Assembly (NCBI GenBank): GCA_029251005.1
Contig: JAQXEE010000098.1
Location: 1-33,862 of the forward strand
Reading direction: 5' to 3'
Length of the DNA: 33,862 bases
Source: Flavobacteriales bacterium
GTDB lineage: Bacteria; Bacteroidota; Bacteroidia; Flavobacteriales_C; GCA-002722245
The position numbers and the translations under genes were made by a program. The notes beneath the pieces are model-generated. The model saw only the letters and a list, made by a program, of their open reading frames with translations. It was not told where the DNA came from and did no database searches. Position 1 is the first letter of the stretch. Each line of letters opens with the position of its first letter. Shown piece after piece: positions 3,788-32,008 of the stretch.

Positions 3788-3959
3788 CTTACAAAATACA
3801 ATAAAAATATTTTTTAACAAAGGTCTAATACTTAAAAACAGAATTTTAAAAGTAAATCATCCAATTCCTAGAGTACAATTAGCTTTACTAAAAAGCCCAT
3901 TGAAAAAAATAAGAAGTGGATATCTTATTACTGGTAGGTTAAATGATAGAATTTAATAA

Positions 3960-6631: not shown

Positions 6632-8371
6632 ATGAAATTAGTTCTCAGGCTTAGCCTTTTTTTAATAATTTTTTCAGCCTTAAAAGTTAATGCTCAAAAT
6701 TGTGAGCAAAAGCCAACAGGAGATAAAATGATTGCCAACGATTACTTCTCGTACGGAATGTACCCATGTGCACTTAAAGAATATCAATTAATTTATGCAT
6801 CTAAACCTAAAAACAAAAAAATAAATCATAGAATTGCCCAGTGCTACTTAATGTCACCGGGCGGAAATAAAAGTAAAGCAATTAAATATCTAACTTTTTT
6901 AATCGAACAAGAAAGCGTTAGCAAAGATGTATACTTCGAACTAGGCCAAGCCTATCTTTACGCTCAAAAATTTGATAAAGCAATTGATTTTTTTGACAAA
7001 TATGAAACCATAGCTAAACCATCTGGAGATGATTTAAAAACTTTAGAGAAATTTAAAGACTGTGCTTCTTTCTCAAAAGAACTTGTAAAGCACCCCTTAA
7101 ATGTTACATTCGAAAATTTAGGTAAAGATGTAAACAGTGAACATAATGATATGCAACCTTACCTCACAAATAAGGAAGATTTTATTTATTTCACTACAGA
7201 TAGAAAAGGCACTCGTGGAGGATTCCCTCTTGGCGATGGTTATGTTAAAGATGTATTTATCACAAAAAATAAAAAAGGAAGAGACGCTTATAAATCTGCT
7301 CGTGGGGTTAGTGGAACATTTAACACCGATTTTTCCGAGGAAATGGCTGGAGGTTCAGCAGATGGAGGTCATTTGTTCGTTGCATCAGATGAGCAATTTC
7401 AAACCTATAACCTTAAATATTCTAGTAAACCACCCAAAAAGAGATCATATTCATCATTGGTGAATTTAGAAGGTATCAACGGCCGAAATAGCAATGAATT
7501 AAGTGCTACAATAACAAATGATGGATCATTTATTATTTTCTCATCAAATAGAGATGGTGGTTTCGGAGGTTTTGATTTATGGATGAGTAAAAAATTACCA
7601 AACAATAGTTGGGGAATTCCAATTAATATGGGACCTAAAATAAATACTCAATTTGACGAAAACTTCCCCATGTTCAAAGAGAATCAGGATAAAATTACAT
7701 TTTCCTCTAATGGGCATCCAGGAATGGGTGGTTATGATTTATTTGAAACTACCTTCTCCAAAGACTTAAAGACTTGGACAGGTCCAAAAAACTTAGGTTT
7801 CCCTATAAATACTGCTTACGACGATAACAATATAATTTTTGTTAAAAAGGGTCGATACGCTTATAAATCTGACATCAGAAAAGATTCAAGAGGAATGAGA
7901 GATATTTATAGAATAACCTTTAATGATGTTCAACCAACTTACACTGTAGTAAAATCGAACATTTTCGCTGACACTTTAGCAAACATAACTGCAATAGCTG
8001 AAATGCTTGAAAAAGAAATCAAGCATAACAAAAACTTGTATGATTCATTGAAAACAATGGATACCGATTCTAGTACTGTTGATTCTATTAAACATTTATA
8101 CTTTGACTATATGGGAAGATTAAACGCTTTAGATCCCATTACAAACAACATAGTAGAGGTGAGAAATAAAGAAGGTAAACTTTACGGGAAATACACTCCG
8201 AACTCAAGAAATGGAGGTTTTATTATGATACTTGAACCAGGGTTATACGAAGTCAATATTCTACACAATGGTTATGAAGCTTTCACTAAAAAAATAAGGA
8301 TTTTCGACAAAATTAATTACACACCGAAATTAAAGCGAGATTTCTACATAAAGCCTAAAGCTTCACTCTAA
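6632..8371 (+). CDS. TPR and PD40 (WD40-like) repeat protein without an OmpA domain
   Basis: 579 residues with a signal peptide (MKLVLRLSLFLIIFSALKVNAQ). Residues about 30-145 look like TPR helices (for example VYFELGQAYLYAQKFDKAIDFF). Residues about 170-430 are a PD40 beta-propeller with repeated signatures such as SSNRDGGFGGFDLWMS near 304 and FSSNGHPGMGGYDLFE near 357. The last 140 residues hold a short helical linker and a carboxypeptidase-regulatory-like beta domain (EPGLYEVNILHNGYEAF). The layout equals that of the protein at 23510, except that the peptidoglycan-binding OmpA domain is absent. Such proteins are periplasmic partners in T9SS and motility modules (PorE-like). It starts an operon with the exonuclease gene, 6 bases downstream. 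Confidence 0.8.
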   Translation: MKLVLRLSLFLIIFSALKVNAQNCEQKPTGDKMIANDYFSYGMYPCALKEYQLIYASKPKNKKINHRIAQCYLMSPGGNKSKAIKYLTFLIEQESVSKDVYFELGQAYLYAQKFDKAIDFFDKYETIAKPSGDDLKTLEKFKDCASFSKELVKHPLNVTFENLGKDVNSEHNDMQPYLTNKEDFIYFTTDRKGTRGGFPLGDGYVKDVFITKNKKGRDAYKSARGVSGTFNTDFSEEMAGGSADGGHLFVASDEQFQTYNLKYSSKPPKKRSYSSLVNLEGINGRNSNELSATITNDGSFIIFSSNRDGGFGGFDLWMSKKLPNNSWGIPINMGPKINTQFDENFPMFKENQDKITFSSNGHPGMGGYDLFETTFSKDLKTWTGPKNLGFPINTAYDDNNIIFVKKGRYAYKSDIRKDSRGMRDIYRITFNDVQPTYTVVKSNIFADTLANITAIAEMLEKEIKHNKNLYDSLKTMDTDSSTVDSIKHLYFDYMGRLNALDPITNNIVEVRNKEGKLYGKYTPNSRNGGFIMILEPGLYEVNILHNGYEAFTKKIRIFDKINYTPKLKRDFYIKPKASL

Positions 8372-15218: not shown

Positions 15219-16555
15219 AACTCCTTTCTAATTCTATATTCTTTTGGATAATTATTATTCAATCTGTTACCAACCTTTTTCACCCAACCCAATCCTTGAT
15301 TCTTGTATGTTATAAGTCCCCATGATTTTATATCAGGCACCTCACTTAAGTCCTTCTTTTGTAAGAATTTAATCGCTTCTTCCTTTGAGACTTCAATTGT
15401 TTCTATTTTATTTAAATCTAACTCATGTGAAAGAGCCAACTCATGAGAATACTTTAGCTTTCCTTTAATATCTTGTCCAAGTTCACAACCAATCTTAAGC
15501 GGTTTTAATTCCCACAGCATACACTTCACAATGTCTTCGAATTCTTCAGGAAAACTATGAACCATATCCTTTATTACATACTTTCTACAACCATTATCTA
15601 AAGGATTTTCACCATCCCATTTATCTAATCGCACATTCCGAATTCTCTTCGGCATCTTTAACTTATGACGTCCTCCAAAAACCTTTATTGCTGAAATAAA
15701 AAAACCTTCACCTTTCGTTTTTCCTGGGAAAAACTGATATCCTTTAAGTCCACCAACTTCAACTATTTCAATCGAGTTTTCAGCGCAGTAGACATCTGAA
15801 ACAAAATCAAAATCTTCAACATTATAATTTTCCTCAATCCAAGCCAAGTTTTCTTTATTCTCCTTATCGTTAAACGTGCAAGTGCTGTAAATTAAAACTC
15901 CGCCATCTTTTATGGTTGGAATAATATCAGTGATGATTTTTTGTTGTCGAGTACAACAAATGTCAACTCCACGCATATTCCATTCTTTACGAGCGTTTTG
16001 ATCTTTTCGAAACATACCTTCACCACTACAAGGAGCGTCTGCTAAAACAACATCAAAGAATCCTAAATATTCTTTAAAATCTTCCGGATCATTATTTGTA
16101 ACGGCGCAATTACTACTGCCCCATTTATCTAAATTCTCTTTTAAAATCCAAGCTCTAGATCGTACAATCTCGTTGGCTACCAAAAATGCACTTTTAGGTA
16201 ATAATGCACTGATATGTGTAGATTTACCTCCTGGAGAGGCACATAAATCTAAAACAGTCTTCGCTTTTAAATCAATCGCTTTTAAAATTTGCTCTAAAAA
16301 CATACTACTTGCCTCTTGCGAGTAATATACTCCTGCATGAAACAAAGGATCAGCAACAAAACTTGGTCTTTCCTTTAAGTACCTTCCTTCTTTACTCCAA
16401 GGAACCTGCTCCTCATCCTTAAATAAATTGTGTTGTTTAAAAGGATTTTGGCGTATTGAATAAACAGGATCTAAATTTAAAGCTATTACTAAAGCCTCTT
16501 TTGCTTCAGTTGAAAGATTTAAGGAATCAATAAAACTTGATGGTAATTCAATCAT
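15215..16555 (-). CDS. RsmB/NOP-family RNA cytosine-C5 methyltransferase (RsmF-like)
   Basis: 446 residues. SAM-binding motif I is DLCASPGGKS (103-112). Motif IV is DAPCSGEGMFRKD with Cys176, and motif VI is IYSTCTFN with the catalytic Cys226, so both m5C cysteines are present. The C-terminal third resembles the PUA-like RNA-binding region of RsmF. RsmF methylates 16S rRNA; the specific site in this organism is not visible. It overlaps the upstream M48 protease gene by the ATGA junction and its stop shares TTAA with the convergent DUF5683 gene. Confidence 0.92.
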   Translation of the reverse strand: MIELPSSFIDSLNLSTEAKEALVIALNLDPVYSIRQNPFKQHNLFKDEEQVPWSKEGRYLKERPSFVADPLFHAGVYYSQEASSMFLEQILKAIDLKAKTVLDLCASPGGKSTHISALLPKSAFLVANEIVRSRAWILKENLDKWGSSNCAVTNNDPEDFKEYLGFFDVVLADAPCSGEGMFRKDQNARKEWNMRGVDICCTRQQKIITDIIPTIKDGGVLIYSTCTFNDKENKENLAWIEENYNVEDFDFVSDVYCAENSIEIVEVGGLKGYQFFPGKTKGEGFFISAIKVFGGRHKLKMPKRIRNVRLDKWDGENPLDNGCRKYVIKDMVHSFPEEFEDIVKCMLWELKPLKIGCELGQDIKGKLKYSHELALSHELDLNKIETIEVSKEEAIKFLQKKDLSEVPDIKSWGLITYKNQGLGWVKKVGNRLNNNYPKEYRIRKEF

Positions 16556-17766
16556 TTTAAAGCTTTAATTCGTTGGTGGATGGGTGGATGCGAGTAATAA
16601 AAGAAAACATATGCTGGATGCGGGTTTAAATTAGATAAATTGTCCACCGATAATTTTTTCAATGCTGTAATTAAAGTCTCTCCATTATAGGTTTCCTTAG
16701 CATAAGCATCGGCTTGATATTCCATAATTCGAGAAATGTTATTTTGCACCATCCCTATTAAAAAACTAATTGGCGTAAATAAAATTGAAAAAGCTAACAA
16801 TCCAGTATAAAAATTTGGTGTTTCAACGCCTAACCCTAATGAAAAATCGGATTGATTCAATGCCCAACCTAACAAAAATAACATCCCAAACAACTGTACA
16901 ATAGAGAAGAGTAAATTGAATAAAGTATGTTTCCGTTTGTAATGACCAATTTCATGCGCTAATACCGCCGTAATTTCTTCTTTCGATTGTCCTTCTATTA
17001 AAGTATCATATAAGACGATTGTTTTAGTTGGACCTAATCCGCTAAAAAAGGCATTTGCTTTCTTGCTCCGCTTACTTCCATCCATTTGATATAAATTTTT
17101 CAATCCATAACCCACTTTTTTACAATAAGCCAAAACATATCCCTTTAATCCTTCGTCCTCAATTGGACTTAGCTTATTAAAAAGAGGCAATATTAAAGAA
17201 GTATAAAATGTGTTAACAAAAATCATTATAACAACGATTACCCCCCAAAAAACCAACCAGAAGTCTGAGCCTAAAATTTCAAAAAGCCATCCTAGCAAGA
17301 ATAAAAGTCCTCCTCCTATTATAGCTCCAATAACTAATTGCTTGATAGTGTCGGTTAAAAAGAGTTTTTTACTAGAATTATTAAAACCAAATTCTTCTTC
17401 AATTATAAATGTTTGATAGTAACTAAATGGGATGGAAATTAATTGATTTGCACCAAGAAGAATCCCAAAGAATACTAAAGCTTGGTAAGATTGGTTATCT
17501 GAAAAAGAAATAGCGATTTCATTTACCCAATTAAATCCTCCCTCCATTATCATGAAAACCATTATTGCTAATGATATTATCTTGCTTATAAAACTAAACT
17601 GATAATTCTTATGAGCATACTCTACAGCTCTTTTCACTTGACCTTTAGTATAAATACCTCTTACTTGAGTAGGCCAAGGTTTCAAAATGTTTTGTTGATT
17701 TAATCGCCCTAAAATCAACTCAATTAAAAATACTCCAACTAATACTCCAATTACTAAAGCCACCAT
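16552..17766 (-). CDS. M48-family membrane metalloprotease (Ste24/CAAX protease-like)
   Basis: 404 residues. Several membrane segments are visible (residues about 3-20, 60-78, 95-112, 145-165, 172-195, 285-302, 322-340). The zinc motif HEIGH is at 271-275 and the third ligand Glu349 lies in EYQAD. The TKTIVLYDTL block before HEIGH is typical of the Ste24 type. In bacteria such enzymes are thought to degrade abnormal membrane proteins; CAAX processing is not expected. The next gene starts inside its stop (ATGA), and upstream is a 159-base gap shared with the divergent adhesin operon. Confidence 0.92.
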   Translation of the reverse strand: MVALVIGVLVGVFLIELILGRLNQQNILKPWPTQVRGIYTKGQVKRAVEYAHKNYQFSFISKIISLAIMVFMIMEGGFNWVNEIAISFSDNQSYQALVFFGILLGANQLISIPFSYYQTFIIEEEFGFNNSSKKLFLTDTIKQLVIGAIIGGGLLFLLGWLFEILGSDFWLVFWGVIVVIMIFVNTFYTSLILPLFNKLSPIEDEGLKGYVLAYCKKVGYGLKNLYQMDGSKRSKKANAFFSGLGPTKTIVLYDTLIEGQSKEEITAVLAHEIGHYKRKHTLFNLLFSIVQLFGMLFLLGWALNQSDFSLGLGVETPNFYTGLLAFSILFTPISFLIGMVQNNISRIMEYQADAYAKETYNGETLITALKKLSVDNLSNLNPHPAYVFFYYSHPPIHQRIKALK

Positions 17767-17925: not shown

Positions 17926-20900
17926 TTGAAAAAGCTATTTTTTATCGTCTTTTTTCTAATTCTTACCTTTCCTATAGTTGGTCAGGTAACTGCCGAGTTC
18001 GATACAGATCAAACTAGCGGATGTGCTCCGTTCGTTGTCCCTTTCACAAATCTATCAACGGATGGTAACTCTTACAAATGGGATTTTGGAAACGGCTTTA
18101 CGAGTACTGACCTAGATCCAATTTACATTTATTCTCAACCTGGTATTTATACGGTAACACTTATAACCACAAACGGAACTGATTCAGATACAACAAAAAA
18201 ATCAGCACTAATAAGAGTTAACGCATCTCCCGTTCCAAAATTATCAGTTAACAGTCAAAATGGCTGTTCACCTCATATAGCTGAATTCTCTGATTTATCT
18301 ATTCCACAATCAGGAACAATAACCGAGTGGTATTGGGCATTTGGAAACGGAGAAACTTCAAGTGAACAAAATCCAACAACTACATATATTGAAACGAAAA
18401 ATTATGAAGTTTTTTTAAAAGTAAAAGATATTAATGGATGTGAGGCTTCTATTTCAAAATCAGATTTTATTCGTCTAGATAATCCTCAAGCAAAATTTGT
18501 TCACGGTTCTGTTAAATGCGGTCTTCCCTCACCTGTAACTTTTATTAACAAATCAACAGGTGAAGACTTAGATTACAATTGGGATTTTGGAGATGGAAAT
18601 TCAACATCTGGCGATGTACCAGGAATTCATGAATATATTGCTTTTGGGACTAAACAAGTTACTTTAACCGTCACTGAAAAGCTTACAGGATGTAAGGATA
18701 CTTATTCAAAAAGTCTCGTTGTTGGTGATTACGAAGCGACCTTCGATTGGGATATTATTTGCGGTTTTAATGAATTCACAATTAAAGTTGAGAACACCAC
18801 CGAAACATTTAATTCTTTGGATTGGAATTTTGGTGGAGAATCAACTAAATCTACACAAAATGCTGAATACAATTTTAAAGGAAAAGGGCCATATGAAATA
18901 ACTTTAACATCAACTGTAAATGATGCTTGCTGGGATACAACAACTATTACCTATCAACTTCCCGAACCAATTGCGAATGGCATACCTCCAATTTGTAGCG
19001 ACCCCCTAGAAGTTACATTTACAAATAATTCCAAAGGTAGTGAATTAGATTATTATTGGGATTTTGGAGACTCTCTTTACTCAACAGAAAAGTCCCCTGT
19101 TCATACTTATGACATTCCACCCGAAATATTTAAATATAAATTAGTTGCCACCGATAAGTTTGGGTGTTCCGATACGAATGCATGGATTTTAAGAGTTCCA
19201 TTTCCAATTGCTCGATTTTATGAGCAAGATTCAATTTACACAGGATGTTCACCTTTAAATTTAACTTTTAAAGACACTAGCTACACCTTAAATTCAAAAA
19301 TCTCAAATGTTGAATGGAACTTTGGAGATCCTGCGTCTGAGAGTTTAAATGAAAGCAAAGAATTTGAACCAAATCACATCTATAATACCCCAGGTGATTA
19401 TGATATAAAATACATTATTTTCACCGAAGACGGCTGCTCGGACACAGTAACATATGAGGCAATTATTAAAGCTGGAGAAAAACCAATCTCTGCTAATTTC
19501 ACTCAATCACCCAACGATACAATTTGTTACGGTGATAGAATTGATTTCGAAGACCAAGCTAATTACCTTACAACTTACTTGGAAAGTAATTATTTCTGCT
19601 GGGCATTTAACGAGGGAACAAATTCATTACTAATTGATGAAGAAACACCAATTTCAGATTGCCCTCCAAATGTTTCTTCATATCTAGGAAAAACTCCTTT
19701 TATCAATTACAACGATCCTAGTCGCACATACGAGCAGTTTAAACACGTTTCGGATACAATTGGAGATACTATTTCAACAGGAGAAGTAATTCCTGATGCC
19801 GGTCAACTTTACACCCACTTGATAACCGGATATAATGGTTGCTTTGTTGAAGTTATTAATCCAACATTTGTAGATACTACTATTGCTGTTAATGGATATG
19901 TAATCGAAGATAATTTTGAACTCTTTTCAGATAGTTCGAAATTTTTTGGCTTTTATCAAGCCTCTTTAAATTATGACTCCATTGCCTACAGTTACATTTA
20001 TTCTGCATCTGCAAGAACTGATACAGTTTATAAAATACACCCAACAGATACTTCTTTTTTCTTATTAACGGAAGGGGAAAAATATTACGTAAGAACAAAA
20101 ATACTTAACAACGCATCTGGCTGCGAAAATGAGCTTTATGATCAAATTGTAATTGATTCCGTAAGATTAGATTTTGAAGTAGTTAAACGTCAATGCCTAA
20201 ATAGCAACCCTGTGCTATTTGATGATAATTCTCATGCAAAATATGGAAAACTAATTGAACGAAATTGGTTAATAAACGGAGTTAAAGAACTTTCTAGTTT
20301 AGATTTTGACAGTGCATACTACTCCTTTCCCGACACAGGAACGTTTAAAATAACACTTCAGAACATCTATCAAATTGAGTATTACAAATATGGGGTAAAA
20401 ACTTATGGGGACTATACCAAGGAACTTACAAAGCAAATAAAAATTGAAGGTGTTAAAGCAAAAGGCTCTTCAGACACTTTGAATATTTGTGGAGGGGAAA
20501 CACTAGAATTTACTGATTCTTCAGGTTCTACAAACTTAATTAAAGATTATGTATGGCAATTTGGATACGAAACTGATAGTGCAACAATTCAAAACCCCAG
20601 TCACATTTATAATTTAGCAGGAACTTATACCCCTACTTTAATTGTGACAGACACCTTTGGTTGTTATGACTCCGTTGCATTAACTCCTATTTCGGTATCA
20701 AAACCAACCGTTAACTTTATTGTTTCAGATTCTTTAATATGTAAAGGTGACTTTATTTCAATGATAAATGAGAGTATTAATTATCCCGTTGAAAATTCAC
20801 TTTCATATACATGGACTGCATATTCATTCACTAGCAATAATATTGATTTTGTTCAACAATTTGACTCTGTGGGGTCCTTTGACATTAAACTTCATGCAAT

Positions 20901-22491
20901 CGACAATACTTCCGGTTGCCAAGATTCTCTTATAAAGACAAAACATTTAGAAGTATCAGATTTCCCTGAAACTAACTTTGCAGGAAGCCCATTATATGTT
21001 GACTGTCCACCACTCGCTTCAAATTTTGGTGACAGTACCAAAACTAATGTTTTAAGTTGGAATTGGAATTTTGGAGATGGTAATACTTCCAGTAGTCAAA
21101 ACCCAATCAATATATTTACATCTCCAGGTTTGTTCGATATTAGTTTAATAACCACTAATTTTGCAGGATGTTCGGACACCTTGATTCGAAAAGAATATGT
21201 TAACATTAATGGGCCAAGCGGTTATGTTAATTTCAACCCTGATACACTTTGTATTCCAGATTCAGTGAAGTTTGATTTAGAGCTTAACAACACGCAATTC
21301 TACATTTGGAATTTTGGAGATGGGAACAACATTAGCTATAATTACGAAGATTTTCCAGACTCAATTTTTCATCATTACAAAAAAGGTGGAACTTTTCAAC
21401 CAACTATTGAACTAATTGACGATGAAGGTTGCTTTTACTCTTTGCCTGAGTTACCAATAATCCAAGGAGACAGTATTAAGGCTCAGTTTATGACTAGCTC
21501 TGATATTATTTGCGATGTATTAAATATCCCCTTTCAAAATAACTCAAGATCAACATTTGAATCCGAATTTCTATGGACATTTGGAGACTTAGACTCCTCT
21601 AAGGTAAAATCTCCGTTACACACCTATTTAACAGACAGCATTTACAGCGTAACATTGAAACAAAAGAGCCCACTAGGTTGTATTGATTCTGTTTCAAAAA
21701 CAATAACAGTTTTCAATGCTCCACTTCCGAAACTAAACATCCAAAACGAGAATTTTTGTATTCCTTCAATTTCTATATTAAAATTAATTTTCGAAAACAA
21801 TCAATTTGTTGCAGACAGTAGCTTTTTTACTTTAGAGAATTCAAAAATTATGGGGGACTCAATAGTCTATCAATTTGAAAATGACGGTATAAATAACATC
21901 CAGTTTACAATTGCATATGGTAGTGGAAATTGTGTAATAGACAGTATTGTGGCAACTCCATTTTACAAATGGCCAATTGCAGACTTTGAATTTTCCCCAA
22001 AAAACAATTCGACAGAAGAACCCGATGTGATATTTAAAAATAAAACACAAAATGCATCTGAATGGTTATGGGATTTTAATGATGATGAGACGAGCTCAGA
22101 AGAAAGTCCGGGTAACAGTTTTAAAGAGGCTGGTTCTTATAAAGTAAAATTAATTGGGTCGAATGCTGGAGGATGCTCAGACACCGTAATTAAGGACGTA
22201 AATATAGCGCCTTATGATTTTATAAAAGTTCCTAGCGCATTCTCACCTAACGGAGATGGTCAAAATGATTTATTTGGAATTTTAAGAGCTGGAGATTTTA
22301 CCATATTAGAATTTAAAATATACAACAGATGGGGAAATATAGTATTTGAATCAAATAATGTAAACGATAAATGGGACGGAACAAAAAAAGGAAGCCCCCA
22401 AAATACAGGAACATACATTTACTATATAAAAGGAAGTCGGACCTCAGGTAAACAAATCGAGATTAAAGGAGATTTCACACTGCTTAGGTAA
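17926..22491 (+). CDS. giant PKD-repeat surface protein with T9SS type B (CHU_C) sorting domain
   Basis: 1521 residues. The start is a TTG: the frame has a stop at 17908-17910 and no ATG before a full signal peptide (MKKLFFIVFFLILTFPIVGQ). About a dozen PKD or PKD-like domains follow from residue 22, recognised by repeated WDFGDG/WNFGDG and ...YTVTL motifs. Most carry a Cys pair (GCxP early, GCSDT late). Residues about 525-745 are irregular and lack the PKD core motif. The C-terminus (about 1433-1521) is the gliding-motility-associated domain (VPSAFSPNGDGQNDLF, YNRWGNIVFE, WDGT, TYIYYI), a secretion signal for type IX export to the surface. It is the first gene of an operon with PorP/SprF (1-base overlap). 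A role in adhesion or gliding is inferred. Confidence 0.93.
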   Translation: MKKLFFIVFFLILTFPIVGQVTAEFDTDQTSGCAPFVVPFTNLSTDGNSYKWDFGNGFTSTDLDPIYIYSQPGIYTVTLITTNGTDSDTTKKSALIRVNASPVPKLSVNSQNGCSPHIAEFSDLSIPQSGTITEWYWAFGNGETSSEQNPTTTYIETKNYEVFLKVKDINGCEASISKSDFIRLDNPQAKFVHGSVKCGLPSPVTFINKSTGEDLDYNWDFGDGNSTSGDVPGIHEYIAFGTKQVTLTVTEKLTGCKDTYSKSLVVGDYEATFDWDIICGFNEFTIKVENTTETFNSLDWNFGGESTKSTQNAEYNFKGKGPYEITLTSTVNDACWDTTTITYQLPEPIANGIPPICSDPLEVTFTNNSKGSELDYYWDFGDSLYSTEKSPVHTYDIPPEIFKYKLVATDKFGCSDTNAWILRVPFPIARFYEQDSIYTGCSPLNLTFKDTSYTLNSKISNVEWNFGDPASESLNESKEFEPNHIYNTPGDYDIKYIIFTEDGCSDTVTYEAIIKAGEKPISANFTQSPNDTICYGDRIDFEDQANYLTTYLESNYFCWAFNEGTNSLLIDEETPISDCPPNVSSYLGKTPFINYNDPSRTYEQFKHVSDTIGDTISTGEVIPDAGQLYTHLITGYNGCFVEVINPTFVDTTIAVNGYVIEDNFELFSDSSKFFGFYQASLNYDSIAYSYIYSASARTDTVYKIHPTDTSFFLLTEGEKYYVRTKILNNASGCENELYDQIVIDSVRLDFEVVKRQCLNSNPVLFDDNSHAKYGKLIERNWLINGVKELSSLDFDSAYYSFPDTGTFKITLQNIYQIEYYKYGVKTYGDYTKELTKQIKIEGVKAKGSSDTLNICGGETLEFTDSSGSTNLIKDYVWQFGYETDSATIQNPSHIYNLAGTYTPTLIVTDTFGCYDSVALTPISVSKPTVNFIVSDSLICKGDFISMINESINYPVENSLSYTWTAYSFTSNNIDFVQQFDSVGSFDIKLHAIDNTSGCQDSLIKTKHLEVSDFPETNFAGSPLYVDCPPLASNFGDSTKTNVLSWNWNFGDGNTSSSQNPINIFTSPGLFDISLITTNFAGCSDTLIRKEYVNINGPSGYVNFNPDTLCIPDSVKFDLELNNTQFYIWNFGDGNNISYNYEDFPDSIFHHYKKGGTFQPTIELIDDEGCFYSLPELPIIQGDSIKAQFMTSSDIICDVLNIPFQNNSRSTFESEFLWTFGDLDSSKVKSPLHTYLTDSIYSVTLKQKSPLGCIDSVSKTITVFNAPLPKLNIQNENFCIPSISILKLIFENNQFVADSSFFTLENSKIMGDSIVYQFENDGINNIQFTIAYGSGNCVIDSIVATPFYKWPIADFEFSPKNNSTEEPDVIFKNKTQNASEWLWDFNDDETSSEESPGNSFKEAGSYKVKLIGSNAGGCSDTVIKDVNIAPYDFIKVPSAFSPNGDGQNDLFGILRAGDFTILEFKIYNRWGNIVFESNNVNDKWDGTKKGSPQNTGTYIYYIKGSRTSGKQIEIKGDFTLLR

Positions 22492-23510
22492 TGAAAATAA
22501 TATCATTCATATTATCATTTTGTATATATGTAAATTTAATTGGACAAGATATTCATTTCTCACAATTTAATGATTTGCCGCTTGCTTTAAATCCTGCTTT
22601 GAGTGGCAAAATGGATGGCACATTAAGATCTGGTACAATATATCGTAATCAATGGAATAGTATAAGTATTCCTTTTGAAAGTACTGGACTATACGCTGAC
22701 TTTAAAATCAGTCCAAAATTTCTTAGAGGTCAAAACATAGGATGGGGAGTTCAATTATTAAATGATCGATCAGGAAGTGGTGCATTAAATGAAAACACAC
22801 TCTCTTTTTCTGGAAGTTATCATCACTTTCTTACAGAAAAAGAAGACCATTTAGTTACTGGTGGTATATCAATTGGCGGTTTCCAAAAAAGTATTGATTT
22901 ATCTGAATTAAATTTTGAGAATCAATTTATTGTTGAAAATGCTAACTTTGGAAATATGTCAAGTAATGAAAACCTTGAAAGTAACTCTCTACTGAGAATG
23001 GACTTAGCAATGGGAGGTTCGTGGACATACTTTGATCCATATGGCTATCAATTGTCAGCGGGAATTAGTGTTTTTCATCTTTCTAGGCCAAATAATAGTT
23101 TTTATAGAAAAGAAGATGCACTTGCGAGAAAAGTAAATATCCATGCTAATGGTGTATATCCAATTAATCAAAGGTTTGACTTGGATCCAAGTTTTTTAAT
23201 CTCAACTCAAAACAAAAATACTAGTATTGTTGTTGGTACAGATTTACTTTATGACTTAGGTAGAAAAACAGTAGAAAAAATTGACTTAAAAGTAGGTTTT
23301 TTTGCTAGACTTGGTGACGCTTTAAATTTCACAATTGGAATGAATCACGACAACTGGAGTATTGATTTGGGTTACGATCTTAATGTATCAGGATTAAGAC
23401 AAGCAAGCCAATCAAGAGGTGCATTTGAAATGTCAATTTCTTTTGTTAACAGGATGTACAAAGGTGCCAAAAACATTAAATACGTAATCCCTGGAAACAG
23501 ACTATTATAA
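22491..23510 (+). CDS. PorP/SprF-family T9SS outer-membrane protein
   Basis: 339 residues. The signal peptide ends at about residue 19 (YVNLIGQ), followed by the family motif DIHFSQFNDLPLALNPALSG and IYRNQW, then the alternating strands of a beta-barrel with NFTIGMNHDNWSIDLGYDLNVSGL near the C-terminus. SprF-type proteins are required for export and attachment of type B C-terminal-domain proteins such as SprB. Its place between the PKD adhesin gene and an OmpA-domain gene, with TAATG overlaps on both sides, points to the adhesin as its client. It shares only family-level motifs with the copy at 2864. Confidence 0.93.
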   Translation: MKIISFILSFCIYVNLIGQDIHFSQFNDLPLALNPALSGKMDGTLRSGTIYRNQWNSISIPFESTGLYADFKISPKFLRGQNIGWGVQLLNDRSGSGALNENTLSFSGSYHHFLTEKEDHLVTGGISIGGFQKSIDLSELNFENQFIVENANFGNMSSNENLESNSLLRMDLAMGGSWTYFDPYGYQLSAGISVFHLSRPNNSFYRKEDALARKVNIHANGVYPINQRFDLDPSFLISTQNKNTSIVVGTDLLYDLGRKTVEKIDLKVGFFARLGDALNFTIGMNHDNWSIDLGYDLNVSGLRQASQSRGAFEMSISFVNRMYKGAKNIKYVIPGNRLL

Positions 23511-25474
23511 TGAAAAAATTATTTGCACTAACCGTTTTTCTTCTTTTGAGTGTCCTGACTTTTGCTCAATATAAAAGTACAAAGTTAAAAATGGCAGATG
23601 GATTACTTGAGGAAGGTAAACTATATGCTGCTCTTCAAATTTATGAGGATATCGCTAAAGGTGAAGGAGAAAATAAAAGTATCTACCGAAAAATAGCTGA
23701 GCTACATGAAAAACTATACAATTTTGAAGAAGCTGCAAAATGGTATTACGAATTATTTGAAATACAAGACGGAGAATTTCCAAAATCAGAATTCAGATTT
23801 GCCTTTTTAATGAAAATGCAAGGTAAGTATAAAGTAGCGCTTGAACATTTTACGAGCTTTAGTAAGACGTATAGGGGACATGATAGATTAGCATACTCTA
23901 AAATATGTAAGAATGAAATTAAAATATGCAAAGAAGCGTTAGAATCTTTACCAAACGCTGAAATTTCGATTAAAAAAATTCCAGAGAGCATTAATTCTAG
24001 CTATACGGATTTAGCCCCTTTCGCACATGATGGAAAACTATATTACTCTTCGATAAAATCAGATTCAACTCTAACTTATACTGGGTTTTTAGACTCTGCC
24101 CCTACTTTTCAAATTTATATGGCAAAACAAATCGAAGATGAAAAATTTGATTCCTCTAAATTATTTATTCCAGAAATATTAAACACACCATATCAACACA
24201 CTTCAAACGGAAGTTTCAATTCAAAAGGCAATCAATTCTTTTTCACAAGGTGTAAGGAAAACATTAATGGTAAAACAGTTTGTAAAATATATTGTACATC
24301 AAAAAATGATTCAGCCTGGGGAAAACCTGTGCTGCTAGGTCCTGAGATTAATGATAGAAATAATAATTTCTCTAGCACACATCCTGTATTAATGACCTAC
24401 AAGAAACAAGGAAGAACTGCTACAGAAATCAATAAACTAGTTTTCGCAAGTTCAATGCCTGGTGGTGTTGGTAAATACGATTTATGGTCATGTATAATTG
24501 GAAAAGAATTGAAATGTGAAAAGCTTGAAAACCTAGGAAAAAAAGTCAACTCTTTTCAGGATGATTTAACACCATTTTACTCAACAGATGACGGGTATTT
24601 ATATTTCTCATCAAATGGACATGGTGGATTGGGTGGACTGGATATTTTTAAAACTCAAATTAAAAATGGAACACCAAAAAAAATAAAAGCCTTAGATCAA
24701 CCTGTAAATTCATCATCGGATGATTGGTATTATAATCAAATGAATTTAGAAACAGCATTCTTTGTATCCAACCGACTTGGAGCTAAGTCGTATCACAATA
24801 ATACAAGGATAGATGATATCTTTTTAATTAAAAAAGAGAAACAAAAATTCCTTTTCCTATATGCTCAGGAAAATGATAGTTTAGCAAAAGAAATTCATGG
24901 CGGAATATTTAAAATAAAATTCGCTAATGATCCCAAAGCATTAGCTAAACAGGTAAGTTCCGGAATAGCTTTCAAAGTAATTCCAAATAAAACCTATGAA
25001 ATTACAGCCCAGAAAAATGATTATATAAACGAAAGTATTCTCTTCTCAACCTCAAGCGATACAAAGCTAGACACCTTAACTTGGATTTTTAAACTTCAAA
25101 AAATTGATACAACAACTGGGTTTATTTTAAAAAACATCTATTTTGAAAACAATTCTTTTGAACTAAAATCAGAATCAAAACAAGCCTTGAATAAATTGTA
25201 TAAAACCCTAATGGACAATCCTTCTTTTCAGGTTGAAATTGGCGCTCATACAGACAATATTGGTACCGATGAATATAATTACAAACTATCAACTCAAAGA
25301 GCTTTAGAGGTTGTTAAATATCTTATTAAAAAAGGAGTTGGGTCTACAAAACTCGTTGCAAAAGGTTATGGTAAAAGCCAAGCTTTAAAAGGTAATATCG
25401 ACAATGCTAAAAATAGAAGAATTGTATTTAAAATTATTGACTTGAATCATATTGATCAACAAAAGAAAAAATAA
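23510..25474 (+). CDS. TPR-PD40-OmpA periplasmic protein (PorE-like)
   Basis: 654 residues with a signal peptide (MKKLFALTVFLLLSVLTFAQ). Residues about 25-140 form TPR helices, about 165-430 a PD40 propeller (for example SSNGHGGLGGLDIFKT near 367), about 440-530 a short beta domain, and about 540-650 an OmpA-like peptidoglycan-binding domain. The latter has the expected GAHTDNIGTDEYNYKLSTQRA and GYGKSQALKGNIDNAKNRR, including the Asp and Arg that contact peptidoglycan. It should sit in the periplasm, tying the PorP/SprF barrel and its client to the cell wall. It overlaps the preceding gene by one base and is 4 bases from the next. Confidence 0.92.
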   Translation: MKKLFALTVFLLLSVLTFAQYKSTKLKMADGLLEEGKLYAALQIYEDIAKGEGENKSIYRKIAELHEKLYNFEEAAKWYYELFEIQDGEFPKSEFRFAFLMKMQGKYKVALEHFTSFSKTYRGHDRLAYSKICKNEIKICKEALESLPNAEISIKKIPESINSSYTDLAPFAHDGKLYYSSIKSDSTLTYTGFLDSAPTFQIYMAKQIEDEKFDSSKLFIPEILNTPYQHTSNGSFNSKGNQFFFTRCKENINGKTVCKIYCTSKNDSAWGKPVLLGPEINDRNNNFSSTHPVLMTYKKQGRTATEINKLVFASSMPGGVGKYDLWSCIIGKELKCEKLENLGKKVNSFQDDLTPFYSTDDGYLYFSSNGHGGLGGLDIFKTQIKNGTPKKIKALDQPVNSSSDDWYYNQMNLETAFFVSNRLGAKSYHNNTRIDDIFLIKKEKQKFLFLYAQENDSLAKEIHGGIFKIKFANDPKALAKQVSSGIAFKVIPNKTYEITAQKNDYINESILFSTSSDTKLDTLTWIFKLQKIDTTTGFILKNIYFENNSFELKSESKQALNKLYKTLMDNPSFQVEIGAHTDNIGTDEYNYKLSTQRALEVVKYLIKKGVGSTKLVAKGYGKSQALKGNIDNAKNRRIVFKIIDLNHIDQQKKK

Positions 25475-25478
25475 TCAT

Positions 25479-26639
25479 ATGAGAAATTATAACTTGTTTA
25501 TCCTGGCTATTTTATGCCAATTTACCTCATTAGCTAATTGGGCAGAGGTTGAAACGCCAACATCTGAAAATTTAAATAAACTTGAAATCATAGGCAATAT
25601 TGCTTTTTGTGTAGGTGAAAATGGCACTTTACTAAAAAGCACTAATTTTGGAGACACATGGAATCTATTAAACTCAAGTACTTCTTCAGAAATAACAAGT
25701 ATCAAATTTGTAACTGCTAATCTTGGATTCTTTACTACCATTGATGGTGAAATATTCAAAACACAAAATGGAGGGTCAAGTTGGACTGGTGAACAACTGC
25801 AAGACATTGGAGCATTAAACTGCGTAGATTTTCTTGATGAGAACACCGGATTAACAGCTGGTGATAACGGAAATATATTTAGAACCATCAATGGGGGTAA
25901 TACTTGGAACACTTTAGGAGGCCAATCTGTATTCGTTGTAAACGATATACTTTTAATGAATGACACACTAGCATTAAGCGTAGGGGCTCAGGGCTCTGTT
26001 CTGTCAAGTTCTGATTTAGGATTAACATGGACGCTTGTTTCTACGGAATCATTTGAATCATTCTCTGCTTTGGAGAAAAAAAATAATGAAGTTGCTATTT
26101 TCACAGGAACAAATGGAGTAATCGGTGAGTTTTCTGCCATTTCTATGAGCGTAGGTGAAATAAAAAGTATCGATTCTGAAAACGACTGGTTAACTGATTT
26201 AGAAGTCTTGGAGAACGGTAGGGTTTTCGCTGTTGGAAGAAATAGTTCAATACTAAGAACAAACAACGGCTGGAAAACACTAGATCTTGATTCTACTAAT
26301 GATATTCAAAGCATCAAATTTTTTAACGATACTTTAGGTCTAACTTGCGGATCAGATGGTAAAATATACAAAACTGAAACTGCAGGGGCACCAGTAGGCA
26401 CCAAATCTGTTTTAATTGAAAGGCTAAAAATCCACCCTAATCCAGCAAATAATGTTATAACACTATCAGAAAATTTCGAAAGGAAAAAGCTAGAAGTATT
26501 TGACATCAACGGTAAAAACATAATGAACATCAATATTACTTCTAACAATATTGATGTTTCAAACCTAGTTCAAGGGCAATACTTTTTACGAATATCTTCT
26601 CGTACTAAAATCTATTCAGGAAAGCTAATCGTCCTTTAA
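25479..26639 (+). CDS. Ycf48/BNR-like beta-propeller with T9SS type A sorting domain
   Basis: 386 residues from the ATG at 25479; a TTG 27 bases earlier lies inside the upstream gene and would place extra charged residues before the signal peptide (MRNYNLFILAILCQFTSLA). Residues about 22-305 are a propeller of repeats like NGTLLKSTNFGDTWNLL, GEIFKTQNGGSSWT and GNIFRTINGGNTWNTL, as in Ycf48 and BNR repeat proteins. Residues about 311-386 form the type A sorting domain (LKIHPNPANNVITLS ... VFDINGK ... LVQGQYFLRI), which directs T9SS export. It closes the adhesin operon. Why a type A client is placed with a type B adhesin and PorP/SprF is not known. Confidence 0.9.
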   Translation: MRNYNLFILAILCQFTSLANWAEVETPTSENLNKLEIIGNIAFCVGENGTLLKSTNFGDTWNLLNSSTSSEITSIKFVTANLGFFTTIDGEIFKTQNGGSSWTGEQLQDIGALNCVDFLDENTGLTAGDNGNIFRTINGGNTWNTLGGQSVFVVNDILLMNDTLALSVGAQGSVLSSSDLGLTWTLVSTESFESFSALEKKNNEVAIFTGTNGVIGEFSAISMSVGEIKSIDSENDWLTDLEVLENGRVFAVGRNSSILRTNNGWKTLDLDSTNDIQSIKFFNDTLGLTCGSDGKIYKTETAGAPVGTKSVLIERLKIHPNPANNVITLSENFERKKLEVFDINGKNIMNINITSNNIDVSNLVQGQYFLRISSRTKIYSGKLIVL

Positions 26640-26995: not shown

Positions 26996-29900
26996 TTATT
27001 TTATTAAAGATACTGTTCCAAATACTTTGTGGCTGTCCCCAGTAAAAGGATCTTTCACAACTAATCTCCACACATAAACGTCAACTTGAGCACAATCTCC
27101 ACTTGAGGGAGCCAATTCAGTTACAGTACCGTCCCAACCTTTATATGGTGTTCTACTCTTCCAGATTAAGGTTCCCCATCTGTTGTAAATTCTAAAGTCA
27201 TAATCATCTCCTTCAATTAGGTTTCTGCCTAAAGGAAAGAAAACATCATTTATTCCATCTGCATTAGGTGTAAAAGCATTAGGGACAAAAATTGAAAATT
27301 TATCTATGATTGTAAGGGGTTTAATAATTGAATCAACACAACCATTAGCATTCGTTACTTTTAACTTAACATTTACAACATCCCCATTTGGAGAATCAAA
27401 AACAACTTGTGGATTTATAACATTTGATGTTTGTGGACTGGCTGTTGTAATTGAATCAGAAGCGAAAGGTAACTGAATATCCGTAAAATCCCACTCATAA
27501 GATACTACATCTGAAGAAGATAGGTCGTTAAAAGAAACTTGATTATCATCTACATCAATAACATCGGGGCTCCAACCAAAGTCAGCTTCTGGAAGCGCAT
27601 ATAAACACACTGCACTTGTAATAGTAGTATCACTTTTACATCCATTTGCATAAACGTTACTCAACTTAACATCATAGCATCCTGAAGTATTATATGTTTC
27701 TGAAACAGTTCCAGAAGTTTCATTTGAAACATTTAAGTTTCCAAAATCCCAGCTACTTTGAGTTGGAACCTCATCTGATTCATCTGTAAAGAAAGTCGTT
27801 AAAGGTACACAACCCGTTCTTGGTGTAACTGAGAAATTTGTTGAAGGAATTGATAAAACTTTAAAAGTAATATCATCTTGTGCGAAACAACCTTCTGTTA
27901 CACCATAAGTTACCTCATAATCACCCTCGATTGTTGGATTGAATGTTCCGTCAAGGCTCACACCTTCTCCACCCCAAACACCTCCTGGAGTTGTAGCAGC
28001 ATAAAACTGAATAATATCAGAACCAGCACAAACAGGAGACTGTTCAATAATCGTTGCATCAGGAGGGCCTACGACTTCAATATCAATAGTCTTAATATCC
28101 CCACATCTTGTATTTATAGTGTGAGTTATCGAATGAGTTCCAACTCCAGCGGTAGCAGGATCAAAAACACCTAACTCAGTATCAATAATTCCTGTACCAC
28201 TCCAAGTTCCGTTTGCAGTTCCCAATGGCAGTAAAGCAAATGGTAAATCAGTAAAACAAGCTGTATCAACAAACGCAATAGTTGCGTCCTCTCTTTTGAG
28301 TACATGAATCGTTATGAAGTCAGTAGCACTACATAAACCATTTTCAGCATCAAACGTCACAATATTATCGCCTAATGTAGCTGTTTTGGGATCGAAATCC
28401 CCTGTACTATTTACAGCACCTGACCATGTTGTTAAGGTAGATATTGAGGCTGAGGCGGTGAGGTTAACTACGGCATCATCAACGCATAAGGTATCCTGTT
28501 TTGTTATTGTAATAACAGGTAAGGCATCAATTACAAATTCAACAGTGTCAAACAAAGGACACGCACCAGCAAATCCATATTCTAACTCGAATATACCATC
28601 ACCAGAAGTTGCTGTATTAAAAATTGCTCCCGAAACATTCAATCCTCCATTCGTATTAGTGATTTCTCTCCAAACACCTCCAGATTCGGCAGTGGTTAAG
28701 ACTTCATCATTATGATCCTCACAAAATTTAAACGTTGTATTTGTTATTGTTGGGTCTGGTGTTCTATTAACTACAATATCTATTGTTTGAATGTCTCCAC
28801 AACTGCCACCAATAGTATAAGTTATTGTATGTATTCCATCTCCAGCTACAACAGGATCAAATACTCCAGTTGCTGCATCAACTCCTGTACCACTAAAAGA
28901 ACCTCCAGGATCTGCAACGTTTAGCGTTACTTGTGGATCTGAATCACAATAAGGCCCTACTTGAGTTATGGTTGCATCTAACTTATTAGTTGTTGTTACC
29001 CAAATAGTATCTTTGTCCCCACAAGGCCCTGATTGGGTATAAATCAACATTTCGTTTGTTACAATTCCTAAAGTTGCTAAATCAATTTCAATTTGAATTC
29101 CTGTTTGGATAACAGCGGTATTGTTATTCCAAGTACCACCTGCTTCTATAACAGAAAAGGTCGGGTTTGCATCTAATACACAAAGAGGTATTGTATCTTC
29201 TACAGAGTTAATCGTTGCATCTTTTAGAGGATTGATTGTTACATTCATCGAATCAACATGACCACACATCTCGCTAATGTAATAGTATAATTTAAACGTC
29301 CCCGAATGGTCGGTTGGATTTAATGTAATCCCTCCAAGCTCACTTCCTGACATAGTATCCGTTTTAAACCATACACCTCCGGAATTGGTCGAAGTAAGGT
29401 TAAAAACAGTGTCAACTGCACAGTAATCAATATGAGCAGACGTTATAGTCGCGTCTTTATCAGGTATTACTGTTACTAGCACAGTGTCTAAATCTCCACA
29501 TGGATCTGCTAAGTAGTAAATCAGATTAAACTCTCCAGCTCCATGTACCGCAGGATCAAATGATGTTCCACCCAATTCATTACCAGCTCCAGAGGTTGTG
29601 TCATTCACAAACCAAGTACCGGATAAATCACCAGTTAATAAAGCAATTGGAGGATCACTTTGGCAAATAGTACTATCAGGAGTTGCAATTGTAGCATTTT
29701 TAACTGCATCAACATGTATTGTTAAAGTAGTATCATTTCCACATTGTCCACCAATAGTATAATTTATAATATGATCTCCAGCTCCAGAGTTACTTGGTGT
29801 AAACTCTCCAAGCGCATCTGCATCTCCAGACCAAACTCCTGAGTCTGCTGATAAAGGTATAATCTCTAAAGTAACAGCAGGATCATTTGCACAATAAGGT

Positions 29901-32008
29901 CCTACTTTTTTAATTTCAGGATGTGGCCTTTCTATTACAACGACATCAATTGAGTCAGTATTAATACATCCTAAACTATCGGCCCCATATTTAACAGAAT
30001 AAACACCTGTGCCTAAAGCAAGAGGGTCAAATTCTCCTATCAAGGAAGGAAAGCCTTGGTCAATTTGCCAAGCGACTGCAGTTACATCGCCATTTCCTCC
30101 TAATACTGGTCCAGCAGTCATTATAACAGCAATAGAGTCGTCACAAAATGGACCAACTGGATCGATAATAATTGTTGGGATTTTCTTTACTTCGATATAC
30201 ATAGAGTCTTCGCAGGAATCATCCACTCTAAACATCAATTTATAAACACCATATTTAGTTCCTACAGCAGAAGCATCAAACAAGGTATCAGTACCTGAGT
30301 CATCAATTAAAGCATTAACACCAGGGGTTGACGGAACAGAATCTATTGTCCAAATTCCATCTCCACTTGCTGAGATTACAGCGGTATCTAACAAAAAAGT
30401 TTCCCCAACACAAATTGGTTCTGAATTACTAATATCAGCATCACAGCCGCATGTCCCTACTACAAAAACAATCGTGTCTTTTACGTCACAAATCTCAAAA
30501 TAGACTTCATATGTACCTGCTCCATCTGGCGCATCAAAAACACCTGTAATAGGATCTACAGTACAATTAGTACAAGCGTTAACTCCAGTTGTAGCAACCG
30601 AATATGCCTCTTTATAACTCGGGGTATTTTCAGCATCAGTACCCTTACAGATCCAATTCGTTTCTAAATTAACTGGTAAATCACATTCTGTTAACGGTTG
30701 AGGCTCTTCAATTTCAACCCAATCTTGTGGTGGAACAAACATATTTGGCAGCCCATAACCAACAGAGCCAGAACTTGCATTCAAACCTGTAAGGTTGATT
30801 AAACTTCCGTTTGAGGTTATAAAATCATCTCTATATGCCCATCCATTTGATTTAAATTGAGCCATATAAATTTCACCATCTCCTCCAAGTTTAACAGAAC
30901 CAATTGTTACATTTCCATCTCCTGTATTTCCAATTTCAGAATATGCGCCACTGGCTACGCTATACTCACCAAGTCGACCAAATAATGGTCCACTCCATGG
31001 ATCTGCTTGAAATGACACGTATAACTTACTTCCATCAGCAGAAAACTCACAATCATATGGATTAGATGCACCAACAGAACCGTCTCCAAATCCTACTGAC
31101 GAAGTAAAAACTCCATTAAGACAGTCAAAGTCTAAAATACTTACAGAATTTGTTGGATCCCAGGTTCCTGTTCCACAATGAAATGTTGCACCAGCTTTAA
31201 TATTTTGGTCTAAATTTGGATTTGGAGCAAACTCTAACGATGCTCTTTCATTTGAGTATTCTTGAGCCGGCTTTGCATGTACTTCAAAACCAATATCAGT
31301 AGTTACCGGAACAGGATTCAAACCTCCGCATTCTAATAAATATGCGAAGTATTTATTTGTTGTTGAACCTTCGATAGATTCATGCGTAACAATCCAAATA
31401 TCTAATCCATTTTGGTGAAAAGTACCCGCTACCTGCTCCGTACATCTATAACCTCCTAAACGATTGGCAGCTGAACAAGTATTAGTCTCTTTATCATATA
31501 TAAAATAGTTGAAGCCGTTTGTTATTCCGTTTTGTGCACCACCAATTGCATCATCAGTTGTAAATATGTAATAATCATTTTGATTTAATGGATGTTTGGT
31601 AATAAAAACCCCCTGAACAGCTGATCCAGTTGCTCCTCCAGTATTTTCTGCTCCAGTTTTAATCCCACCTGGAACAACAACCTCTGTACCTGTTCCGTCC
31701 CATAATTTAACACCATTGGTGAAAATAATAAGGTTACCATCTTCATCACTTGCTGACGCGCAAGATTCATAAGCTGTAAAAGGTGAACCAGCACCAATTT
31801 TAGTGGATACAGAAACTCCACCAATTCCATCAGCACCAAAAGTCATCATTTGAGCTTTACCTGAAAACCAATTGGTATGTGTTGGCCATTGCCATTGATT
31901 CAATGAAGCCGGACAAGTTCCTTGTCCAAAAGATGTATTTGAAAATGTAATAATTACTAAAAGAATAACCTTTGGTAATAATTTATTTAATGTTTTAATA
32001 AAACCCAT
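26996..32008 (-). CDS. giant Ig-like-repeat surface protein with T9SS type B (CHU_C) sorting domain
   Basis: 1670 residues. After a signal peptide (LPKVILLVIITFSNTSFGQ), residues about 30-430 form a propeller-like N-terminal region common to CHU_C proteins (NPYDCEFSADGSKLYVSF near 325). A Pro/Cys-rich stretch leads into 11 tandem Ig-like repeats of about 78 residues (about 528-1384), then two PKD-like domains (about 1385-1560, with SSWDFGN and VSYEWDF), and the C-terminal type B sorting domain (VPNAFTPNADGINDVF, YNRWGTLIWKS, WDGT). The export route should be the T9SS. It has no PorP/SprF neighbour on its own strand and converges on the adhesin operon. Function as an adhesin is inferred; no enzyme motif is seen. 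Confidence 0.93.
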   Translation of the reverse strand: MGFIKTLNKLLPKVILLVIITFSNTSFGQGTCPASLNQWQWPTHTNWFSGKAQMMTFGADGIGGVSVSTKIGAGSPFTAYESCASASDEDGNLIIFTNGVKLWDGTGTEVVVPGGIKTGAENTGGATGSAVQGVFITKHPLNQNDYYIFTTDDAIGGAQNGITNGFNYFIYDKETNTCSAANRLGGYRCTEQVAGTFHQNGLDIWIVTHESIEGSTTNKYFAYLLECGGLNPVPVTTDIGFEVHAKPAQEYSNERASLEFAPNPNLDQNIKAGATFHCGTGTWDPTNSVSILDFDCLNGVFTSSVGFGDGSVGASNPYDCEFSADGSKLYVSFQADPWSGPLFGRLGEYSVASGAYSEIGNTGDGNVTIGSVKLGGDGEIYMAQFKSNGWAYRDDFITSNGSLINLTGLNASSGSVGYGLPNMFVPPQDWVEIEEPQPLTECDLPVNLETNWICKGTDAENTPSYKEAYSVATTGVNACTNCTVDPITGVFDAPDGAGTYEVYFEICDVKDTIVFVVGTCGCDADISNSEPICVGETFLLDTAVISASGDGIWTIDSVPSTPGVNALIDDSGTDTLFDASAVGTKYGVYKLMFRVDDSCEDSMYIEVKKIPTIIIDPVGPFCDDSIAVIMTAGPVLGGNGDVTAVAWQIDQGFPSLIGEFDPLALGTGVYSVKYGADSLGCINTDSIDVVVIERPHPEIKKVGPYCANDPAVTLEIIPLSADSGVWSGDADALGEFTPSNSGAGDHIINYTIGGQCGNDTTLTIHVDAVKNATIATPDSTICQSDPPIALLTGDLSGTWFVNDTTSGAGNELGGTSFDPAVHGAGEFNLIYYLADPCGDLDTVLVTVIPDKDATITSAHIDYCAVDTVFNLTSTNSGGVWFKTDTMSGSELGGITLNPTDHSGTFKLYYYISEMCGHVDSMNVTINPLKDATINSVEDTIPLCVLDANPTFSVIEAGGTWNNNTAVIQTGIQIEIDLATLGIVTNEMLIYTQSGPCGDKDTIWVTTTNKLDATITQVGPYCDSDPQVTLNVADPGGSFSGTGVDAATGVFDPVVAGDGIHTITYTIGGSCGDIQTIDIVVNRTPDPTITNTTFKFCEDHNDEVLTTAESGGVWREITNTNGGLNVSGAIFNTATSGDGIFELEYGFAGACPLFDTVEFVIDALPVITITKQDTLCVDDAVVNLTASASISTLTTWSGAVNSTGDFDPKTATLGDNIVTFDAENGLCSATDFITIHVLKREDATIAFVDTACFTDLPFALLPLGTANGTWSGTGIIDTELGVFDPATAGVGTHSITHTINTRCGDIKTIDIEVVGPPDATIIEQSPVCAGSDIIQFYAATTPGGVWGGEGVSLDGTFNPTIEGDYEVTYGVTEGCFAQDDITFKVLSIPSTNFSVTPRTGCVPLTTFFTDESDEVPTQSSWDFGNLNVSNETSGTVSETYNTSGCYDVKLSNVYANGCKSDTTITSAVCLYALPEADFGWSPDVIDVDDNQVSFNDLSSSDVVSYEWDFTDIQLPFASDSITTASPQTSNVINPQVVFDSPNGDVVNVKLKVTNANGCVDSIIKPLTIIDKFSIFVPNAFTPNADGINDVFFPLGRNLIEGDDYDFRIYNRWGTLIWKSRTPYKGWDGTVTELAPSSGDCAQVDVYVWRLVVKDPFTGDSHKVFGTVSLIK
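27855..30425 (-). repeat. eleven tandem Ig-like protein repeats within the 1670-residue gene
   Basis: Each repeat has an early Cys in a context like GPYC.SDP, a GG.W or G.WSG turn, a FDP....G.G....Y segment, and a late Cys (often GSCGD, GPCGD or TRCGD). Most end at a D.TI or DATI linker that starts the next unit. Repeats differ clearly at DNA level; only short stretches such as CCACCAATAGTATAA recur, so the array is old rather than freshly expanded. Confidence 0.85.

Follow-up and report, generated by a model that had tools for sequence, protein, structure and literature searches.

A four-gene operon of a Flavobacteriales bacterium predicted to encode a statically anchored T9SS surface adhesin, its mooring and a secreted propeller

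Four co-directional plus-strand genes, read from the open reading frames and their junctions at positions 17926-26639 of the window (the whole stretch of DNA analysed, 33,862 nucleotides), probably encode a statically anchored T9SS surface adhesin, its mooring and a co-produced secreted propeller. Most of the related anchors would be linked by a disulfide, which the window's genus lacks; we assign this reading a probability of about 0.7. Static anchoring of the adhesin in the window's organism itself is what we infer from the gene set. In the proposed mechanism the PKD protein would exit through the general T9SS, and its type B domain would be taken up by the dedicated PorP/SprF barrel and remain bound there. 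The PorE-like protein would hold the barrel from below while its OmpA domain grips the diaminopimelate of the peptidoglycan, and this would fix the adhesin to the cell wall and keep it off the gliding track. The propeller, as a type A substrate, would use the general PorV route and then probably act on this surface structure or on its ligand. In the window's genus, where both cysteine partners were lost, the mooring would rely on non-covalent contacts.

The four genes and their conservation

The features of the operon are the following.

17926..22491, plus strand: adhesin-like client, 1521 aa, with signal peptide, 11 PKD repeats and C-terminal type B T9SS sorting domain
22222..22488, plus strand: type B (CHU_C/TIGR04131) sorting domain of the client, residues 1433-1521, from profile matches
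22491..23510, plus strand: PorP/SprF-family outer-membrane carrier, 339 aa
23493..23495, plus strand: carrier residue G335, a Cys in many PorE-linked PorPs (PC[DEN]R tail)
23510..25474, plus strand: PorE-like periplasmic anchor, 654 aa, with TPR helices, PD40-type propeller and OmpA C-terminal domain
24806..24811, plus strand: anchor residues R433-I434, at the place in the loop where most PorP-linked PorE-like proteins have CC (CCDDI[YF]); the cysteines are lost here
25253..25300, plus strand: anchor residues D582, N590 and R597, aligned with PorE D576, N584 and R591 (alignment; PMC7192894)
25479..26639, plus strand: Ycf48-like beta-propeller of 386 aa, predicted to be secreted, with type A sorting domain
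26430..26633, plus strand: type A (Por_Secre_tail) sorting domain of the propeller, residues 318-385, from profile matches

The adhesin starts at the TTG codon at 17926, which yields a signal peptide, and its TAA stop (22489-22491) shares one base with the PorP ATG at 22491. Likewise, the PorP stop shares one base with the ATG of the anchor gene at 23510, and four bases separate the end of the anchor gene (25474) from the propeller ATG (25479). Upstream of the operon lies a divergent gene for an M48 protease (16552-17766, minus strand), and downstream a convergent gene for a 1670-aa protein with a type B domain (26996-32008, minus strand). Scans for promoters and terminators gave signals near the shuffle level and were uninformative. 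The sequence-only reading had described these domains, this order and the one-base and four-base junctions, and all were confirmed: the reading frames are as claimed and the domains score above the curated cut-offs (given in brackets below).

The PKD adhesin is a T9SS type B substrate by its C-terminal domain (CHU_C 73.2 bits [27]; TIGR04131 56.2 bits [35]); the profile search found PKD_4 in 11 stretches, at 353 bits. The convergent 1670-aa protein reaches 36.8 bits with TIGR04131 (35) and has no PorP beside it. Its relatives also adjoin the module in two other genomes, L060 and L061, and it may be an orphan client sharing the operon's PorP.

The carrier belongs to the PorP/SprF family: it matches PorP_SprF with 119.1 bits (22.3) and TIGR03519 with 162.4 bits (90.55), the barrel model covers nearly its full length, and its gene lies directly downstream of the client gene. 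The client, PorP and PorE-like genes are adjacent and co-directional, as are the genes of static client-PorP-PorE-like operons. The only cysteine of the carrier is C11, within the signal peptide, and the C-tail ends in YVIPGNRLL; the CxC motif of the SprF-type gliding carriers is absent from this periplasmic tail. A second PorP/SprF gene of the window (2864-3820, minus strand; 148 bits) has a tail without cysteine and no PorE-like neighbour. Two further PorPs of the same genome (L074:9272-10282 and L076:9019-9972), also without a PorE-like neighbour, carry tails with two cysteines 12 residues apart (NC...CPSF) and are candidates for track-bound carriers.

In the case of the anchor, the OmpA domain scored 66.4 bits (27.2) and PD40 21.3 bits (20.9). 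Its best models are PorE and CHU_0125; it reaches 259 bits of the 600 needed for PorE, and its signal peptide ends in TFAQ with no lipobox cysteine, so that it is not a lipoprotein. The label PorE-like, used in the sequence-only reading, is appropriate on these grounds, while the name PorE itself would be wrong. Residues D582, N590 and R597 are invariant across nine orthologues of the family, and their counterparts in PorE hold the diaminopimelate of peptidoglycan (PMC7192894); the anchor thus has the peptidoglycan-binding residues of PorE. Its predicted structure is weak (pLDDT 70, pTM 0.49): the TPR helices, a strand-rich middle and the OmpA domain are visible, the CRD domain is not resolved, and at this pTM the model cannot place the cysteine-loop position.

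Two other proteins resemble parts of the anchor. A 579-aa protein encoded in the window (6632-8371, plus strand) has TPR and PD40 matches and no OmpA match, and resembles a PorE cut down to its front half, the peptidoglycan-binding end being absent. On contig C15 of the same genome a PorP-linked PorE-like protein of 777 aa (L077:6592-8922) retains the CC loop; NCBIfam gave it no OmpA-domain match, PorE/CHU_0125 match it over the first 446 residues only, and what it holds may not be peptidoglycan.

The window's PorE-like protein has its closest relatives within the genus, at 57-60% identity, and in the other genus of the family, at about 35%. The adhesin, PorP, PorE-like and propeller order with close junctions was found in the genomes of all eight relatives, which represent two genera; in one of them the adhesin is cut off by a short contig. 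Since the identical order recurs in eight further family genomes with diverged orthologues (identity falling to about 27-35%) and different flanks, a chance explanation of the gene set is ruled out.

Matched cysteines of carrier and anchor

When a PorP gene immediately precedes a PorE-like gene, its product in most cases terminates in a single-cysteine motif, PC[DEN]R or CPRL. The PorE-like partner of such a PorP has two cysteines within a single loop that immediately precedes the strand (D)DI[YF], usually as CC (position 433-434 in the window's protein). A clade of loci (L292, L294, L296-L298, L302, L303, L307, L034 and L219) has the two loop cysteines a few residues apart, as C-x4-C and similar, together with PorP tails of the CPR type.

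The widest comparison set consisted of 118 PorP/PorE-like gene pairs, enlarged through a PorP-based search; a wider draw from the phylum at a strict cut-off gave no new pairs. The tail cysteine and the loop pair are concordant in 117 of the 118, both being present in 90 and neither in 27. The sole discordant pair, L039, has the loop pair only; its PorP reading is frameshifted, and the other frame ends in LPCERF directly before the PorE-like gene. A group of 22, with tails mostly of the SPRYF form, and five pairs of the window's family make up the 27. Four of the five represent the whole sampled genus of the window (the window, L059, L060 and L061); the fifth, L065, is a separate case from the other genus, where its sisters have retained both the tail cysteine and the loop pair. 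An earlier statement drawn from 38 pairs, that every anchor except those of the window's family keeps its cysteines, was dropped when the second large clade without them, the SPRYF group, was found. As read from these sequences, the rule is concordance of the tail and loop cysteines and not their universal presence.

A tree of 99 pairs, including a few duplicates, was computed with the loop columns left out. In it each of the two traits changes twice, on the same branches as the other, as the supported branches require. If the two losses of the second trait fell randomly by branch length, they would coincide with the same two branches with a probability of about 1.6e-4. In the tree of all 118 pairs both traits change three times, again together, two of the changes being forced by supported branches; with so few independent changes a sign test cannot reach 0.05, and the traits are phylogenetically clustered.

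Proteins lacking the partner gene were compared as well. Where no PorP was detected upstream, the PorE-like protein has no loop cysteine in 85 of 91 cases. Three of the other six lie at contig ends, one of which shows a PorP tail with cysteine, and three are true exceptions with a CC loop and no PorP directly upstream (L162:278-2392, L279:2678-4999 and L291:2748-5081); these may serve an unlinked PorP with a tail cysteine. Conversely, 39 of 47 PorPs without a PorE-like neighbour have no tail cysteine, so that the tail cysteine does occur in some of them.

We infer from this pattern, as its simplest explanation, a disulfide between the PorP tail cysteine and the loop pair of the PorE-like protein, both for the majority of such anchors and for the ancestor of the family's module. 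By analogy with the CxC of SprF, which is thought to do so, the loop pair could serve as the donor disulfide. We lean, if only a little, towards a more general form of this idea, in which static T9SS adhesins would be covalently moored, in most PorP/PorE-like operons, through the C-terminal cysteine of PorP to the cysteine pair in a propeller loop of the peptidoglycan-bound PorE-like protein, the captor of the tail cysteine (GldK track versus wall anchor) would decide whether the adhesin moves or stays, and the window's genus would have lost both halves. In the window's anchor, which is without these cysteines, the contact of PorP and the PorE-like protein is presumably non-covalent, as in the SPRYF group. 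A full-text literature search and word searches of the closest papers, whose coverage leaves out most subscription papers, gave no report of a PorP-PorE-like disulfide.

The tail cysteine could also have another partner. The C-tail cysteines of SprF and PorG bond GldK Cys343, described as invariant (PMC12635249), and two-cysteine tails occur in the window's own genome in PorPs without a PorE-like neighbour. If the PorP tails studied here bonded GldK/PorK in the same way, the cysteine pair of the PorE-like proteins would be a separate structural feature and the joint loss would mean the loss of the whole track link. We consider this unlikely, as it leaves unexplained why the loop pair tracks the tail cysteine in 117 of 118 pairs and why most PorE-like proteins without an adjacent PorP gene lack the loop cysteines. 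That the operon is itself a gliding system, its PorP acting like SprF and carrying the PKD protein along the GldJKN track, is improbable to a much greater degree: the carrier does belong to the PorP/SprF family and the genome does encode gldKLMN, but its C-tail has no cysteine at all, let alone the CxC needed for track attachment, and a peptidoglycan-binding gene, absent from the operons of mobile clients (PMC12618676), adjoins it here. Since the tail lacks cysteines, the SprF-GldK mode of track attachment is unavailable to this PorP, and the gliding carrier reading was rejected. Hardly credible at all is the view that the anchor gene encodes the general T9SS component PorE and that the operon belongs to the secretion machine and not to an adhesin anchor. 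The architecture is the same and PorE/CHU_0125 are the best models; the low score and the absent lipobox speak against it, and a better candidate exists elsewhere in the genome, the gene G000:C136, with 507 bits against PorE. This assignment was rejected too.

The predicted secreted propeller

The propeller matches PSII_BNR with 52.3 bits (27), and it is a T9SS type A substrate by its C-terminal domain (Por_Secre_tail 48.1 bits [27]; TIGR04183 44.5 bits [23]). Type A substrates leave by the PorV route, and because of its type A tail the propeller should be secreted through PorV. Its predicted model has a mean pLDDT of 88 and its best PDB matches are all Ycf48; the photosystem II assembly factor Ycf48/HCF136 has the closest fold (5ojr, E 3.5e-15, TM 0.76 by target). 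Unlike that factor, the window's protein has the type A tail and is predicted to be T9SS-secreted, and it scores 60.8 bits against the Ycf48 equivalog, the cut-off of which is 326.

The propeller follows the trio of adhesin, PorP and PorE-like genes in nine of the ten genomes of the window's family, that is, in all nine that have the module. The tenth genome (74% complete) has neither the propeller nor an orthologous PorE-like gene, and the trio is absent too. A survey of 295 genomes of the class separated the family's propellers, with scores above 500 bits, from all others, which stayed below 190. The trio is absent from 20 other propeller neighbourhoods outside the family, and of the 89 PorP/PorE-like pairs for which 1.2 kb or more of downstream sequence could be seen, only those of the window's family have an in-line propeller. 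The best match outside the family is a Ycf48-like type A propeller from another family of the class (L043:11160-12590). It faces an adhesin-PorP-PorE-like trio in convergent orientation, with 3 bases between it and the PorE-like gene, and is the only propeller adjoining a comparable non-family pair.

As checks on the fourth gene the sequence-only reading had named conservation of the four-gene order and linkage of the propeller in relatives. Inside the family both hold (9/9 genomes with the module); outside it the propeller is almost always located elsewhere, unlinked from the other three. The idea that a propeller generally belongs to such operons as a fourth gene was rejected, since it lies in line only in the window's family. 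It is not part of the known client-PorP-PorE unit and is a family-specific fourth member, whose linkage is real and old within the family.

We put at slightly better than even odds that the propeller has a working link to the same surface structure, in processing, capping or ligand binding, as opposed to being a passenger gene. The passenger view, in which an unrelated secreted protein was captured into the operon in the family ancestor and is merely co-transcribed, the first three genes forming the anchor unit, is a real contender, somewhat short of even odds. It agrees with the abundance of Ycf48-like type A propellers in the class, almost always elsewhere, and with their scarcity beside the 89 pairs, where only the family and one reversed neighbour have them. 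It accounts poorly for a gene order that both genera preserve, at identities as low as 27-35% and with changed flanks, and for the best non-family match, that of L043, which also adjoins a client-PorP-PorE-like trio, though reversed.

Relation to known systems

Bacteroidota biology has yet to explain what directs type B adhesins to fixed or to moving sites on the cell. The matched cysteines offer a simple, directly testable rule: the disulfide mechanism recently found for gliding and for the energisation of the T9SS would extend to adhesins that do not move. A natural double loss of the cysteine partners is available in the window's genus. The cysteine rule is the part most worth testing; the three genes are mostly of a known kind, and the fourth is a family-specific variant, a fixed partner that adds an element to this kind of anchor.

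The idea of a client with an outer-membrane partner and a cell-wall link is not new, being already known from P. gingivalis and F. johnsoniae (PMC9143113, PMC12618676). The "complete surface-display unit" of the sequence-only reading is partly supported: well for these three components, with the linkage of the propeller holding within the family only and a part in assembling or capping the adhesin being conjectural. "Self-contained" was too strong a word, as secretion needs the genome-wide T9SS: gldKLMN lie elsewhere in the genome, above cut-offs and behind a porP gene.

A complex of PorE, PorP and PG1035, a type B protein, has been purified from Porphyromonas gingivalis, and the proposal was made that PorP-PorE pairs hold the non-mobile type B proteins but not mobile ones such as SprB (PMC9143113). 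The window shares with that system the type B client, the PorP barrel, the TPR/propeller/OmpA protein and the same peptidoglycan-binding residues. P. gingivalis has one PorP, and its PorE is a lipoprotein needed by the whole T9SS (PMC9143113), whereas the window has a dedicated operon, a large PKD adhesin, an anchor without lipobox and a propeller gene. In F. johnsoniae five operons combine a PorE homologue, a type B substrate and a carrier; the single client examined was static, and the operons of mobile clients have no PorE-like gene (PMC12618676). Fjoh_3952-3951-3950 and the other PorE-containing operons have the same client, carrier and PorE-like order, with a static client there, and unlike in the window no type A propeller gene is described for them (PMC12618676). 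A word search of the same paper turned up nothing on cysteines or disulfides in the proteins of these operons.

The SprB-SprF system resembles the window in having a type B client and a dedicated PorP/SprF barrel (PMC12635249). There, in F. johnsoniae, the C-tail cysteine of SprF bonds GldK in the moving track and the CxC motif is needed for track attachment (PMC12635249); SprF has no PorE-like partner gene, and the window's PorP, in contrast, has no tail cysteine. The chemistry of the SprF C-tail cysteine is the model for the disulfide proposed in the related anchors (PMC12635249). Such disulfide-locked anchors would be the static counterpart of the published SprF-GldK bond, and the window's operon would be one that has lost both partners.
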